DNA of 46,336 bases, from assembly GCA_021846565.1 (NCBI GenBank), contig JAJZWS010000022.1, forward strand, positions 1 through 46,336, read 5' to 3'. The notes below the pieces were generated by a model, which made no database searches, was not told the DNA's origin, and worked only from the letters and a program-made list of their open reading frames with translations. Position 1 is the first letter of the stretch; every line of letters starts with the position of its first letter. Both the position numbers and the translations under genes were made by a program. This stretch comes from Bacillota bacterium. GTDB taxonomy: Bacteria > Bacillota > Sulfobacillia > Sulfobacillales > JAIMBI01. Positions 950 through 7,384 of this stretch are shown one piece after another.

Positions 950-1861
950 TCAGGAGCGGTCGACGGCATCTGGACCGGGTCCGCCCTCGGGGCTCTCGCA
1001 CAGCAGGACCTCAAGCCAGCGCTCCGCCTCGTGGTACAGGGTGGGGTTATTGGCCGGCGTGTAGTACGCCAGCACCGCCACCGCCTGCAAGGCCACCCAG
1101 CCGCGCGCCCGGGCCCAGGTGGCATCGTCCGTGGGCAATGCCGCACGAAAGGCGTCGCGGGCCGCTGCCGAGTGCAGCTTCCATGCCACCATCACGTCGC
1201 AGGCGGGATCCCCAACCCCCATCTCACCCCAGTCGATCACTCCCCGAATGCGCCCATCGCGCACCAGCCAGTTGCGTGCGTCGAGGTCACCGTGGTGCCA
1301 CACGGGCGGGCCCGGCCACGGCGGAGACGTCAGTGCCGCCGCCCACACGGCCGCCACGGCGGGATCGCCGTCAAACCTGGCCAGCCAATGCCGAAAGTCG
1401 CCATCGCGCTCGGCCAGCGGCACTCCGCGGCCGGCGGGTCCTCCCGCCAGATCAACCTGCTGGAGGGCCGCGACGAAGCTGGCCAGGTCCCGCGCGGCCT
1501 GGATGGCGTCAAGCGCTTCGACCGGAAGTGTTTCTCCCGCCACCCAGGTGTGGATGTCCCAAAACCACGGGTAGTCCCGGTTCGGTCGCCCCTGGGCGAC
1601 CGGAGACGGAATGTCAAGCGGCAACGCCGCGGCCAAGTGGGGCAGCCAGCGCGCCTCTTTGCCCCCACGGGCCGTCGGTCCGTCACGCCGCGCCAGCCGC
1701 ACGGACAGGTCCTCGCCCAGACGGAAGATGGCATTCACGGTGCCAGACGGCTCGACTCGGTGGAGCGGAAGGGCAGCCCACGCGGGAAACTGGTCCACCA
1801 GGAGCTGGCGCACCAGCGCTTCGTCAATCTCGCGCTCATCCGTGTGCATCTTGGCCGCCAT
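950..1861 (-). CDS. APH-family phosphotransferase (aminoglycoside/choline kinase fold)
   Basis: A 303-residue protein of the APH (PF01636) kinase-like fold. The catalytic loop HHGDLDARNWLV lies at residues 189-200, with the expected Asp192 and Asn197. It is followed by the metal-binding segment VIDWGEMGVGDPACD with Asp210. The N-terminal nucleotide lobe (about 38-75) includes RLGEDLSVRLARRD. The family transfers phosphate to aminoglycosides, macrolides, choline, homoserine or fructosamine, and the substrate cannot be read from sequence. The ATG at 1861 is preceded by a GAGGGGGC ribosome site five bases upstream, which supports this start. It lies downstream of glmS on the same strand, but a strong hairpin at 1987-2034 separates them, so it is probably a separate unit. 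There is no sign of damage. Calling it a resistance gene would be an over-reading. Confidence 0.82.
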   Translation of the reverse strand: MAAKMHTDEREIDEALVRQLLVDQFPAWAALPLHRVEPSGTVNAIFRLGEDLSVRLARRDGPTARGGKEARWLPHLAAALPLDIPSPVAQGRPNRDYPWFWDIHTWVAGETLPVEALDAIQAARDLASFVAALQQVDLAGGPAGRGVPLAERDGDFRHWLARFDGDPAVAAVWAAALTSPPWPGPPVWHHGDLDARNWLVRDGRIRGVIDWGEMGVGDPACDVMVAWKLHSAAARDAFRAALPTDDATWARARGWVALQAVAVLAYYTPANNPTLYHEAERWLEVLLCESPEGGPGPDAVDRS

Positions 1862-2057: not shown

Positions 2058-3875
2058 CTACTCCACCGTGACGCTTTTGGCGAGGTTGCGCGGCTTGTCA
2101 ATGTCCACGCCCAGGTGTTTCGCCGTTTCATACGCCAACAGCTGCATCGGGAGCGCCATGAGAATCGGCATGACGTCCGGTGCCAGCGTGGGGACCGCAA
2201 TCACGTGATCCAGCACGTCCGCGAGGCCGTCGGCCAGCTCGTCCGCCACGATGCCCACCACATAGCCCCCACGGGCCCGCACCTCCATGATGTTGGAACG
2301 GGTCTTGGCCACCAGGGCCGGGTTCGACACCACCGCCACCACCGGAACGTCCTGCTCAATGAGGGCCAACGTGCCGTGTTTGAGCTCGCCGGCCGGATAC
2401 GCCTCGGCGTGAATGTACGTGATCTCCTTAAACTTCAGTTGGCCCTCCAGCGCCGACAGGTAGTCCTGCCCGCGACCCACGTAAAACACGCTGGGCGCCT
2501 GCGCGAGCCGACCGGCGATGCCGTCAAGGCCCGTGGGCGCCGCGAGCCAGGCCGCCCCCGCGGGCGGCAGGGCCTGGAGCGCGGCCGCGAGATCCGGGCG
2601 CGCCCGGCCGCGCGCCTCGGCCAGCGCCAGCGTCCACAGTGTGAGCAGCACGATTTGGCTGGTGTACACCTTGGTGGAGCAGACCGACACCTCGGGGCCC
2701 GCCCGGTTCAGGGCCACGCGGTCGGCTTGCCGCGCCAGCGTCGAGCCCACCACGTTGGTCACGGCCCACACCGGCAGTCCCCGTCGCTGCGACAGGTCGA
2801 CGGCCGCCAGCGTGTCCAGGGTTTCCCCCGACTGAGAAATGGCCCAGACGATGGTGCCAGCGGGGATGGCCGCCTCCCGGTACCGAAACTCGGAGGCCAC
2901 TTCGACGGTGGCGGGGATGCCCGCCACCCGCTCCAGCAGCTGCGCCGCCATCAGTCCCGCGTGATACGCACTGCCGGCCGCCACCACCCGGACATGCTCG
3001 ACTGCGGCCAAATCTTCCGGCGTGAGGCCGACCTGATCCCGCACCACGTGGCCGTCGGCCCCCAGCCGCCCCGCCATCGTCGCGCGCCACACGTCGGGCT
3101 GCTCTTTAATCTCCTTGAGCATGAAGTGGGGATGCCCACCGCGGGAGGCTTGTTCCCGATCCCAGTCGATGGGAAATGGCTCCCTTACCACGGCGGCCCC
3201 AGCCATGTCCCGCAGTTCCACCGAGTCGGCTCGAATCACGGCCATCTCGCCGTTGTCCAAAACGAGCGCCCGACGGGTGTAGGGCACCAGCGCCGTCAGA
3301 TCCGAGGCAACATACGTGCCACGCTCCGCCAGTCCAATCACCAGCGGACTGGCTTCCCGCACCGCGACCAGCGTCATAGGGTCGTCCGCCGCCACCGCCA
3401 AAAAGGCATACGCGCCCTCCAAGTCGCGCGCCGTGGCCGCCACCGCATCCCACAGATTTCCTCGATAGTGGTGCTCCAACAGATGGGGAATCACCTCGGA
3501 GTCCGTGTCGCTGACAAACTGATGCCCCGCGTCCTGCAGCATGCGCTTTAAGACCTGATAGTTCTCGATGATGCCGTTGTGCACCGCCGCCACCCGCCCG
3601 TGACAGTCGGTGTGGGGATGCGCGTTCACATCGGTGGGCGGGCCATGGGTCGCCCAGCGGGTGTGGCCGATGCCGCACTGCGCGGCGCCCGGCAGGCTCT
3701 CCACCACCCCGATGAGGCTCTCCAAGCGGCCCGCCTGCTTCACATGCGCAATGCCGTCCGCATCGACCACCGCCACCCCGGCCGAGTCATAGCCGCGATA
3801 CTCAAGTGCCGACAACCCTTCCAGCAAAAATGGCAGAGCCGCGTCGCGACCCACATACCCCACAATCCCACACAC
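2058..3875 (-). CDS. glmS: Glutamine-fructose-6-phosphate aminotransferase (isomerizing)
   Basis: Makes glucosamine-6-phosphate from fructose-6-phosphate and glutamine, the first step to UDP-N-acetylglucosamine and cell wall. The open frame runs upstream to 4136, but the true start is the GTG at 3875. It gives the obligatory N-terminus (M)CGIVGYVG, in which Cys2 becomes the catalytic nucleophile after Met removal, and it has a GGAAAGGA ribosome site nine bases upstream. The resulting 605 residues match the family. The N-terminal glutamine amidotransferase half includes GHTRWATHG and AHPHTD. Two SIS sugar-isomerase domains follow (ISQSGETLDT; CSTKVYTSQ), and the C-terminus DKPRNLAKSVTVE is diagnostic. 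It is the last gene of the cdaA-cdaR-glmM-glmS cluster and is controlled by the ribozyme at 4055-4194, with about 180 bases of leader in between. Confidence 0.97.
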   Translation of the reverse strand: MCGIVGYVGRDAALPFLLEGLSALEYRGYDSAGVAVVDADGIAHVKQAGRLESLIGVVESLPGAAQCGIGHTRWATHGPPTDVNAHPHTDCHGRVAAVHNGIIENYQVLKRMLQDAGHQFVSDTDSEVIPHLLEHHYRGNLWDAVAATARDLEGAYAFLAVAADDPMTLVAVREASPLVIGLAERGTYVASDLTALVPYTRRALVLDNGEMAVIRADSVELRDMAGAAVVREPFPIDWDREQASRGGHPHFMLKEIKEQPDVWRATMAGRLGADGHVVRDQVGLTPEDLAAVEHVRVVAAGSAYHAGLMAAQLLERVAGIPATVEVASEFRYREAAIPAGTIVWAISQSGETLDTLAAVDLSQRRGLPVWAVTNVVGSTLARQADRVALNRAGPEVSVCSTKVYTSQIVLLTLWTLALAEARGRARPDLAAALQALPPAGAAWLAAPTGLDGIAGRLAQAPSVFYVGRGQDYLSALEGQLKFKEITYIHAEAYPAGELKHGTLALIEQDVPVVAVVSNPALVAKTRSNIMEVRARGGYVVGIVADELADGLADVLDHVIAVPTLAPDVMPILMALPMQLLAYETAKHLGVDIDKPRNLAKSVTVE

Positions 3876-3997
3876 ACCGATCCGTCCTTTCCCCGAATGC
3901 CCTTCCCCGCATCCTCCGTTCCGTCGCCCTGCATATCCGAGGCGCATCCCCTGACTGGGAGTGCGCCGTCGGTGCCAGAGGCACGCGTTCGCCCCCC

Positions 3998-4020
3998 AGC
4001 AGCCCGCCGGGCGAGCTGCT
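3998..4020 (-). promoter_or_regulatory. Hairpin in the glmS leader between ribozyme and start codon
   Basis: On the glmS strand AGCAGCTCG-CCCGG-CGGGCTGCT forms a nine-pair stem (one G-T pair) with a five-base loop, extendable by the flanking bases. It lies in the roughly 180-base stretch between the end of the ribozyme and the glmS start, a second small hairpin (GTGCC-TCT-GGCAC) following it. No T-run follows. It may shape or protect the cleaved glmS mRNA; its function is not known. Confidence 0.4.
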
Positions 4021-4054
4021 GAAGACACCAGGAGACACCTATGAAAGGTGGTCG

Positions 4055-4194
4055 AGCTCGGCCTCACGGTTTTGTGGCGACATTGCTGTCGACCCTTTGT
4101 CCCGTGGTTGTCGGCCGCCGAGAAGCCGGAGGTCACCCGCCGAATGCTTCGAGATCCCTCTCCTCGTCAGCCCAGTTGCCTGGGCTCCGGCGCT
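4055..4194 (-). promoter_or_regulatory. glmS ribozyme (glucosamine-6-phosphate-activated self-cleaving riboswitch)
   Basis: Read on the minus strand, the sequence carries the hallmarks of the glmS ribozyme core. AAGCGCC contains the cleavage site. A 7-pair P1-like hairpin (4169-4186) is capped by a GCAA tetraloop. The invariant GACGAGG follows directly (4162-4168), then GGGATCTCGA, TCGGCGGGTGACC, and a 3' part with CACGG...CCGTG enclosing GGGTCGACAGC and GTCGCCACAAAACC, as expected for P3, P4 and P4.1. By homology with known examples, cleavage occurs 5' of the G at 4193. The base before it (4194) is the last A of the glmM TAA stop codon. Glucosamine-6-phosphate acts as a coenzyme for cleavage, and the cleaved glmS mRNA is then degraded, giving end-product feedback. 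The 3' border is approximate. Confidence 0.9.
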
Positions 4195-5549
4195 TAAGGC
4201 TCAGAGTTCGCCCGCACTTGTCCCGACGTCAGCGCTTGACGAACAACCGTGGTCAACCGGTCGGCCCACGACTCCACGACCGCGGCATCCCTCCCTTCTA
4301 TCATGATACGCAACAGGGGCTCGGTTCCGGAAGCCCGCACCACCAGCCGACCATCGTCACCAAGGGACGCCCTGCATTCCTGAAAGGCTTCGTCGACGCC
4401 GGACATGCGCTCCCAATGAAACCCGATGGCGGGCAGGCGCACGTTGTCGAGCCGCTGCGGGTAGTGAGGCATCTCGGCCACCAATTCGGATATCGTCCGT
4501 CCGACGCGGTGCACCTCCGCCAAGACCGCCAGCGCGGTCAAGAGCCCGTCGCCGGTCACGGCCCACTCCGACAAAATCACATGGCCCGATTGCTCGCCCC
4601 CGAGGGGAGCCATCCGGGTGGCCATAGCCTCGGCCACCCAGCGATCGCCCACCGGGGTACGGTGGAGCCGAATGCCTTCGGCCTGCAGCGCCCGCTCCAG
4701 CCCCAGATTGGCCATCACGGTGCCCACCACCTCGCCGCCGGGCAGGTGCCCGGTGTCTTTCAGCCCCCGCCCCAACAGGTAGAGAATACCGTCCCCATCG
4801 ATGACGCGGCCCTCTTGGTCGCACGCAATGACGCGGTCCGCATCGCCATCGAAGGAAAACCCCAGATCCGCCCCGAGCTCCTGCACCGCCTGGGCCACAA
4901 TCGCCGGATGGGTGGCCCCCACCCCCTGATTGATGCGCGCTCCTTCGGGCGCGCCGTTTAACACGGTCACCTCCAGACCCAGCGCCTGGAGGACGGCAGG
5001 AACTGTCGTGCTGGCCGCACCGAAGCCCAGATCCACGACGACGTGCATCCGCCCCACGCGGCCGCGGAACCCCGCCACCAGCCGTTCCCGATAGAGATCC
5101 ACGCGCTCCGCGCAGGGTTCCACCCGGCCCATCTGGTCCCATGCCGCCCAAGGCACCTCCGCCCCAGCCACCCGCGCTGCCACGGCCGCCTCGCGGGGAA
5201 GCGTCCACTTGCGACCCTCGGCGTCCAGCAGTTTCAGCCCGTTGTACTCCGGGGGGTTGTGGCTGGCCGAAATCACGACACCGGCCTGGGCCCCCAACAG
5301 GGGCACCAGTGCCGCCACGGCCGGGGTCGGCACCACGCCCAAGAGGCCCGCCGTGCCGCCCGCCGCCGTAATGCCCGCCACCACCGCCGCTTCCAGCATA
5401 GGTCCCGACACGCGCGTGTCACGGCCCACCAGCACCAGCGGCGCCCCGGGCAGCTCCGCCACGGCCGCCGCGCCCACCGCCAGCGCCAACGTGGGGGTGA
5501 GTTCACGAGGGGCCTGGCCCCTTAGGCCGTCTGTACCAAACAGTGCCAC
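4194..5549 (-). CDS. glmM: Phosphoglucosamine mutase
   Basis: Converts glucosamine-6-phosphate to glucosamine-1-phosphate, the step after GlmS. At 451 residues it has the family's normal length. It starts MALFGTDGLRG, matching the usual MxxFGTDGVRG. The active-site loop VISASHNPPEYNG has the phosphorylated Ser96, the Mg2+-binding loop FDGDADR is at 233-239, and the C-terminal phosphate-binding loop VRASGTEPLLRIMIEG is near 410-425. It lies 99 bases after cdaR and directly upstream of the glmS ribozyme, whose cleavage point abuts its TAA stop codon. In several Bacillota GlmM binds and inhibits CdaA, which is consistent with the cluster. No damage is visible. Confidence 0.96.
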   Translation of the reverse strand: MALFGTDGLRGQAPRELTPTLALAVGAAAVAELPGAPLVLVGRDTRVSGPMLEAAVVAGITAAGGTAGLLGVVPTPAVAALVPLLGAQAGVVISASHNPPEYNGLKLLDAEGRKWTLPREAAVAARVAGAEVPWAAWDQMGRVEPCAERVDLYRERLVAGFRGRVGRMHVVVDLGFGAASTTVPAVLQALGLEVTVLNGAPEGARINQGVGATHPAIVAQAVQELGADLGFSFDGDADRVIACDQEGRVIDGDGILYLLGRGLKDTGHLPGGEVVGTVMANLGLERALQAEGIRLHRTPVGDRWVAEAMATRMAPLGGEQSGHVILSEWAVTGDGLLTALAVLAEVHRVGRTISELVAEMPHYPQRLDNVRLPAIGFHWERMSGVDEAFQECRASLGDDGRLVVRASGTEPLLRIMIEGRDAAVVESWADRLTTVVRQALTSGQVRANSEP

Positions 5550-5648: not shown

Positions 5649-6560
5649 CTACGGACCGATCGACACGGTCGCCCGGACGCTTGACGGCGACGCGGTCACG
5701 CCCGACGGCAGCGTCAGATTCACGCGCTTGGTAACCGAGGTGGTCCGCCCCGAAATGGTCACCGGGTTGGTGTCCACCGACGTCATGCCGGACAGCGTCG
5801 AGGCGGGCCCAAACACCGTGACCTGGCCGGGGTCTACGGAGATGGGCCCCACCACGAAGCCAGTGCCCGGCGTGCCGTGATACTTCACGATCACGGGCAG
5901 CGTCTTTTCGGGTGACACCGTCACCGCAACATCCATCAGGCTGGGACTCACCGTCACCTGCGGCACGGCGTGACCCGCCGCATTCACGGCCACCAGGGTC
6001 ACCTGGGCCTCCAGGTTGCTCGTCTGCCCGCTGACATTCACGCGGGCGACCACCTGCGCCACCGCGGCGACGTCATGCGACGGGCCCGAGACCTCTGCCG
6101 CTGTCGAGACCGGCGTCATCACCACGATGCCGTAGCCGCTGGCCACGTGGCCCTGGGGCACCGTCGTGATGCTAAATTTCTTGGCCGTGATGCTGTCCAC
6201 CGTGACGGTCACGTCAGTGGGCGTCACGGAGACGAGGCTCGTGCCGGGCGGCACCGAGGCGCTCACGGGCAACGAATAAGTGCCGGGTTTGGTAATGTGC
6301 GCCAGGTCCACCCAAGCCTCCGCATGAATCGACTGCGTCACCGTGGTGGGCGATCCCTTGATGAAAATCGTCACCGAGGCCGGGTGCATGCCCAGCACCG
6401 TGTAGTGGTTGGTGGCGGCCAGCCAGGTGACGGGCACCGGCCCCAGGCGGCGGTCCACCTGCCGGGGCACCCCGCTGTTGACCTGCACCCAAATGGCGAT
6501 GGCAATCAGCACGGAGAGAATCTTGAGCGCCGTGTCATTCTCCAGGAGCCGATCGGTCAT
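5649..6560 (-). CDS. cdaR: CdaA regulator, YbbR-domain membrane protein
   Basis: A 303-residue protein with a short cytoplasmic N-terminus (MTDRLLENDT) and one membrane segment at about residues 11-27 (ALKILSVLIAIAIWVQV). An extracellular part follows, built of YbbR-like beta repeats. Each repeat carries a variant of the P..V.V.GP pattern, for example VTVFGPASTLSGMTSVDTNP near 235-255. The family binds and modulates the diadenylate cyclase CdaA. The ATG at 6560 overlaps the cdaA stop by four bases (ATGA), indicating translational coupling. Sequence identity in this family is low, so the call rests on topology, repeats and gene order as well as sequence. Confidence 0.9.
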   Translation of the reverse strand: MTDRLLENDTALKILSVLIAIAIWVQVNSGVPRQVDRRLGPVPVTWLAATNHYTVLGMHPASVTIFIKGSPTTVTQSIHAEAWVDLAHITKPGTYSLPVSASVPPGTSLVSVTPTDVTVTVDSITAKKFSITTVPQGHVASGYGIVVMTPVSTAAEVSGPSHDVAAVAQVVARVNVSGQTSNLEAQVTLVAVNAAGHAVPQVTVSPSLMDVAVTVSPEKTLPVIVKYHGTPGTGFVVGPISVDPGQVTVFGPASTLSGMTSVDTNPVTISGRTTSVTKRVNLTLPSGVTASPSSVRATVSIGP

Positions 6561-7384
6561 CGCGCGCTGCCCCGCGTAAAGAGCTTAAACCCGTTGTAGG
6601 GGGCGCGGGCGCGATACAGCCGATTCAACATCTCGCGCAGCGTCCGGTCCTCCAGCCGGCGGTTCAGCTTGCCCTCGACGGCCAGTGAGATCCAGCCGGT
6701 TTCCTCAGACACCACCACCACCGCCGCATCCGACTGCTCGCTCACGCCCAGCGCGGCCCGGTGTCGACTGCCCAACTCGCTCCCGGGCCGGGCAGCATCG
6801 GTGAGCGGCAGGAACGCCGCGGCCGCCACAAGCCGGTCTCCGCGAATGATTACCGCGCCATCGTGCAACGGGGTGTTCGGCACAAACAAGTTTTCCAGCA
6901 GAGCCGACGACACTTTGGCCTCGATAGGCACGCCGGTGGCCACGTATTCATTGAGACCCGTCTGCCGCTCCAGCACCATGAGGGCCCCGGTGCGGCTCCT
7001 CGCCAGGTGGTCCGCGGCTCGCGCCACCTCGTCAATCACCTCGGACATGTCCACCGGCTCGTGGCCCAACAGCGGCTCCGAAAAGAACCGACCGTGCCCA
7101 ATCTGCTCCAGCGCCCGCCTGAGCTCCGGCTGAAACACGATCGGGATGGCCACGATCAGCATCGTTTGGATCGCTGCCAAAATCTCATGGGTGGCATAAA
7201 GGTGCAGATACTGAGACACCGGCACCGCCAGCAGAATGAGCACGATGCCTTTGATGAGCTGCACGGCGCGGGTGCCGCGAATCAAGCGAAACAGACGGTA
7301 AAATCCGTAGCTGACGATGGCGATGTCCACCACGGACAAAAGCCATTGGGACCACGTCATCGTTGTGATGAAAGAAAGCATCAC
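6557..7384 (-). CDS. cdaA: Diadenylate cyclase CdaA (membrane c-di-AMP synthase)
   Basis: Joins two ATP to make cyclic di-AMP, the second messenger controlling potassium, osmolytes and wall stress. It has 275 residues: three membrane segments in the first about 85 residues (roughly 12-34, 41-60, 69-84), then a DAC domain. The motifs are DGAVII at 175-180 and SRHRAALGVSEQSDA at 206-220; DGA and RHR are the catalytic signatures. It starts with tandem Met codons (7384 and 7381). It is the first gene of the cdaA-cdaR-glmM-glmS unit and faces the UbiB-family gene across 81 bases, so its promoter should be in that gap, though I see no convincing -10/-35 pair there. Confidence 0.96.
   Translation of the reverse strand: MMLSFITTMTWSQWLLSVVDIAIVSYGFYRLFRLIRGTRAVQLIKGIVLILLAVPVSQYLHLYATHEILAAIQTMLIVAIPIVFQPELRRALEQIGHGRFFSEPLLGHEPVDMSEVIDEVARAADHLARSRTGALMVLERQTGLNEYVATGVPIEAKVSSALLENLFVPNTPLHDGAVIIRGDRLVAAAAFLPLTDAARPGSELGSRHRAALGVSEQSDAAVVVVSEETGWISLAVEGKLNRRLEDRTLREMLNRLYRARAPYNGFKLFTRGSAR

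Follow-up and report, generated by a model that had tools for sequence, protein, structure and literature searches.

A glmS ribozyme abutting glmM in a cdaA-cdaR-glmM-glmS operon: coincidence of the glmM stop codon with the predicted cleavage site as a probable outcome of C-terminal drift

The window, by which we mean the entire 46,336-nucleotide stretch of DNA that was analysed, carries on its minus strand the genes cdaA, cdaR and glmM, a glmS ribozyme and the gene glmS, in this order. The neighbours of the ribozyme are those named in the original prediction, the four proteins being matched by the models TIGR00159 (CdaA), PF07949 (CdaR), TIGR01455 (GlmM) and TIGR01135 (GlmS). The product of GlmS, GlcN6P, is the ligand of this type of ribozyme. 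The features of the locus, all on the minus strand, are as follows.

6557..7384, minus: cdaA, diadenylate cyclase, first gene of the operon (TIGR00159, 252 bits above cut-off)
5649..6560, minus: cdaR, YbbR-like CdaA regulator (PF07949, 90.4 bits), with a 4-nt overlap (ATGA) with the cdaA stop
4194..5549, minus: glmM, phosphoglucosamine mutase, GTG start, 451 aa (open reading frame; TIGR01455, 474 bits above cut-off)
4194..4196, minus: glmM stop codon TAA, its last base (4194) being A-1 of the ribozyme (translation and Rfam alignment)
4194/4193, minus: predicted scissile bond A-1/G+1 (Rfam alignment; A-1 and GCGCC invariant in the order)
4054..4193, minus: glmS ribozyme body, from G+1 to the end of the Rfam match (RF00234, 63.5 bits; helix covariation in P1, P3 and a P4.1-type helix)
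4169..4186, minus: P1 hairpin AGCCCAG-GCAA-CTGGGCT (97% paired, 5 of 7 pairs changed on both sides)
3876..4053, minus: extra glmS leader, from the ribozyme to the start codon (family alignment; fold z -2.67)
2058..3875, minus: glmS, GTG start (MCGIVG...), 605 aa (TIGR01135, 717 bits, above cut-off)

The leader at 3876-4053, by which the ribozyme is separated from the glmS start at 3875, exceeds that of sister genera by about 150 nt in the window's genus and is variable in sequence; it folds better than shuffled sequences (z -2.67) and contains a GC-rich hairpin (CAGCAGCTCGCCCGGCGGGCTGCTG) lacking a U-run. The glmS frame is also open upstream of its start codon across most of the ribozyme (4136-3876, minus strand, with a GTG at 4136), which is probably due to chance in GC-rich DNA. 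An open reading frame of 303 aa at 950-1861 (minus strand) shows weak similarity, far under the cut-offs, to aminoglycoside/macrolide phosphotransferase families, and to judge from its sequence it is probably a generic APH-fold kinase.

The claim that the element preceding glmS is a glmS ribozyme is borne out by Rfam cmscan, in which the covariance model RF00234 matched the minus strand from 4205 to 4054 over its full length (model positions 1-167, not truncated) with 63.5 bits (E 2e-12), the curated cut-off of the family being 37 bits. This was the single Rfam match at gathering thresholds in the whole window, and also the only glmS ribozyme in the Rfam scan of the full 3.4 Mb genome. Between positions 3700 and 7700 the scan gave no other RNA element at E values up to 1, and the idea of an additional RNA element near the ribozyme was rejected on this basis. 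In the Rfam alignment, position 12 of the model (A-1) falls on 4194 and position 13 (G+1) on 4193, and the A-1/G+1 site is followed in the window by GCGCC and by the GACGAGG core; A-1, GCGCC and GACGAGG are invariant in all 33 members of the window's order. P1 (in the window, 4186-4180 pairs with 4175-4169) and two further helices are 97-99% paired in these 33 sequences, with 4-5 pairs in each altered on both sides, and the covariation test on the same sequences gave 107 cells changed on both sides, as against 27 for shuffled and 10-25 for slid controls. One helix drawn by us, at columns 134-138/173-177, fits only 48% of the cells and is probably misaligned or differs among subgroups, while the columns of the double-pseudoknot core (P2.1, P2.2) are mostly invariant in the order alignment and thus uninformative for covariation. 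Based on these sequence comparisons, the element is an ordinary member of the glmS ribozyme family, with an identity far beyond chance, and self-cleavage is predicted for it.

The register between the two elements likewise proved to be as claimed, to the nucleotide: the TAA of glmM (4196-4194) follows the codons for ...NSEP, and the predicted scissile bond lies between its last base (A-1, 4194) and G+1 (4193). The glmS ribozyme of B. subtilis (RF00234), reportedly treated by Winkler (2004) and Collins (2007), shares with that of the window the RNA family, the downstream gene, the cdaA-cdaR-glmM-glmS order and the A-1/G+1 register. However, the window differs from B. subtilis in lacking a spacer between glmM and the ribozyme, the last base of the stop codon being A-1 itself. 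Upon accumulation of GlcN6P, the ribozyme would cleave the common transcript at the 4194/4193 bond; the glmS fragment would acquire a 5'-OH and then decay, and the cdaA-cdaR-glmM fragment would end with the glmM UAA as its final three bases. From the family membership of the ribozyme and from B. subtilis, we infer that, in the window's organism, GlcN6P triggers the cut and the glmS fragment then decays. The corresponding glmS fragment of B. subtilis is degraded by RNase J1 (PMC3997798; PMC11780869).

This sequence of events presumes that a shared message exists, and the original prediction had set against it an independent glmS promoter located downstream. By a consensus scan, no promoter-like site is found between 5395 and the ribozyme; this part of the expectation therefore stands, although as weak evidence, and a glmS promoter beside the ribozyme was rejected since the scan offered no candidate there. 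As there is no promoter-like site in this stretch, co-transcription of the operon is weakly favoured, and we infer that it takes place in this organism. If, instead, glmS possessed its own promoter within glmM, then most RNAs bearing the ribozyme would not be polycistronic and the overlap would be inconsequential for glmM. Consensus scans in a GC-rich organism can miss a promoter inside glmM, and one promoter-like site was seen at 5422-5395. However, this single site is near chance (0.3 expected), the stretch from 5395 to the ribozyme is empty, and the same operon is co-regulated in B. subtilis, where the ribozyme feedback is established (PMC6171935); a separate promoter is thus unlikely in our assessment.

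The significance of the exact coincidence was assessed from the distribution of the offset d, counted from A-1 to the final base of the glmM stop codon, in the window's relatives and 299 genomes of the phylum, which yielded 179 glmS ribozyme loci with glmM upstream; the counts ignore relatedness, and several of the genomes are MAGs. In the window's order all 33 loci have d between -19 and +27, the majority lying from -19 to -8, whereas for the 146 loci outside the order the median d is -101 and only 14 of the 146 are at -20 or closer. The contrast originally drawn with ribozymes residing in a free leader is therefore valid, as most loci outside the order have more than 50 nt between glmM and the ribozyme. 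Compared for the same overlap, as the original prediction had suggested, the members of the order share the abutment (33/33) but not the exact coincidence (2/33). On the aligned loci, abutment of ribozyme and glmM is a lineage trait of the order. Six genomes of the same order (G014, G016, G018, G026, G030 and G032), all at least 95% complete, have no RF00234 match, and in these the ribozyme may have been lost or have diverged. Elsewhere in the phylum, long P1 insertions (about 100 nt or more) after G+1 are seen in L227, L232, L272, L237 and L238; in L237 and L238 the Rfam match begins well inside the element, and the offset of L237 was set by hand to -17.

The two order members with d=0 are the window and a sister species (a congener, also a MAG, whose GlmM is 93% identical to the window's; L045/L082), and d=0 is seen once elsewhere, in another lineage (L227). 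In the congener L025 a 1-nt difference shifts the frame and d is -14, while in the congener L035 the window's TTAA has become CCAA, so that the glmM stop lies in the P1 loop and d is +18. The offsets within the genus are thus 0, 0, -14 and +18, and where glmM stops with respect to the ribozyme is not conserved even at this level. Sister-genus loci vary similarly: d is -14 in L038, +1 in L044, where the scissile bond falls within the stop (TA/G), and +27 in L049, where glmM terminates on the TGA within the core TGACGAGG. Among loci from outside the order, d reaches +1 (L272, L228) and +8 (L263, L265). Altogether the glmM stop is split by or lies beyond the cut in 7 of the 179 loci (+1 in three, +8 in two, +18 and +27), and it is at or past position -1 in 12 of the 179, spread over at least five families; coding regions that run up to or into a self-cleaving riboswitch are thus recurrent. 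Such overlap is found in 6/33 loci of the order and 6/146 of the others (p 0.01), a comparison that ignores kinship and is not relied on here. The exact coincidence as a conserved feature is rejected, being present in only 2 of 33 order members, and with congeners at -14 and +18 the proposed coupling of stop codon and ribozyme is not supported as a selected device.

An explanation for the coincidence is suggested by the C-terminus of GlmM. In most members of the order the protein ends with ALESAKA or a similar sequence, about 10-19 nt before the cut, whereas the window's GlmM extends several residues past this usual end, to ...NSEP, and in its genus and family the C-termini are variable beyond the common AL.S end. 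The edge of the ribozyme can itself supply stops, through the conserved A-1 and G+1 and the frequent U/A at -3 and -2 (UAA/G, UA/G, with the slash marking the cut). Stop triplets ending at d=0 are present in 15% of the ribozymes of the order and 13% of the others, and those ending at d=+1 in 18% and 20%, respectively, as compared with an upstream-flank background of 5-6%; at +8 they are found in 19% of the ribozymes outside the order. Because this edge is rich in stop triplets, a glmM frame deprived of its own stop will often end there; the exact coincidence is therefore unsurprising and requires no special function, and, given that the two elements abut, the stop-cut register does not exceed chance expectation. 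In the window's family, an older upstream stop of glmM would have been lost in several species, the C-terminus would then have shifted by drift as far as stop triplets located at the ribozyme or within it, and the exact coincidence in the window would be one result of such drift, for which the evidence comes from a handful of species of one family. We hold it to be very probable that the locus contains a glmS ribozyme-riboswitch of the ordinary kind, set in a cdaA-cdaR-glmM-glmS operon, and that its exact coincidence reflects C-terminal drift. This account leaves the order-wide tight packing unexplained, and selection on the packing could be involved.

The geometry by which a ribosome terminating on glmM would sit on the 5' strand of the ribozyme, as envisaged originally, is valid, since a ribosome whose A site holds the stop codon covers about 12 nt beyond it (PMC3834316); in the window these are positions 4193-4182 (GCGCCGGAGCCC), which comprise G+1, the GCGCC strand, itself invariant, and the larger part of the P1 5' strand, so the first strand of the ribozyme would be covered. 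Terminating ribosomes could then delay folding and cleavage, such that glmS is spared during heavy translation of glmM and cut when translation slows. The terminating ribosome reaches G+1 (d of -11 or more) in 12/33 loci of the order versus 7/146 elsewhere, kinship being ignored, and interplay of translation with riboswitches has a precedent in the B12 riboswitches of M. tuberculosis metE and ppe2 (PMC11260477). There, too, translation of an upstream frame and a riboswitch share one leader RNA; however, that case involves short uORFs and termination-reinitiation with no self-cleavage, whereas here a full metabolic gene ends at the predicted cut site of a ribozyme. Against such shielding, the stop lies 12-19 nt upstream in 21 of the 33 order members, where the edge of the ribosome would not pass A-1, the stop position varies even inside the genus, and occlusion would last no longer than termination itself. 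Competition between ribosomes and ribozyme folding is thus possible but draws no support from positional conservation; its weight depends on the time taken by termination relative to that of folding plus cleavage, and as a regulatory explanation we consider it improbable.

Cleavage at such a site could also affect the upstream gene by making its message a poor template, a feedback that would lower GlmM as well as GlmS. Wherever glmM stops across or past the cut, as in 7 of the 179 loci, its message would lose the stop on cleavage and become a true non-stop mRNA for tmRNA-SmpB. The classical substrate of trans-translation is a ribosome at the 3' end of an mRNA within a few nt of the P site, and the likeness to tmRNA-SmpB rescue lies in this position; however, the 3' end here would be produced by a metabolite-triggered ribozyme, and only some relatives lose the stop, which the window keeps. 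In the window the cut would place the stop at the very 3' terminus; there tmRNA could contend with release factor, and the loss of even a little 3' sequence by trimming would abolish the codon. The predicted cut leaves exactly 3 nt beyond the P-site codon, within the range of 0-6 nt for which tmRNA transfer is fastest (PMC3834316); the genome of the window has smpB next to ssrA, and tmRNA is present in G003, G005 and G006. However, release factors should still read an intact UAA in the A site, the processed upstream fragment might decay regardless, and the arrangement with the stop across the cut is sporadic. A literature search on trans-translation with ribozymes and non-stop mRNA found nothing. 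Regulation of glmM in this manner is, in our estimation, quite unlikely, and we regard as more doubtful still the combined proposal that the ribozyme, where it overlaps the 3' end of glmM, affects both of its neighbours, with the cut lowering GlmS and also GlmM (through non-stop or bare-stop messages and tmRNA-SmpB) and glmM translation shielding the ribozyme.

No account of a coding region that terminates at or within a self-cleaving riboswitch was found in the papers searched, although this is weak evidence of novelty, as the search was thin on subscription journals and on the main class surveys. In the textbook view, the glmS ribozyme regulates only its downstream gene, and if cleavage renders glmM non-stop in the loci concerned, this view would need to be extended. 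Offsets from -19 to +27 occur in nature and provide a set of variants ready for testing. If glmM is not made non-stop, the locus still illustrates how an upstream gene whose end drifts can obtain stop codons from the edge of a conserved RNA.
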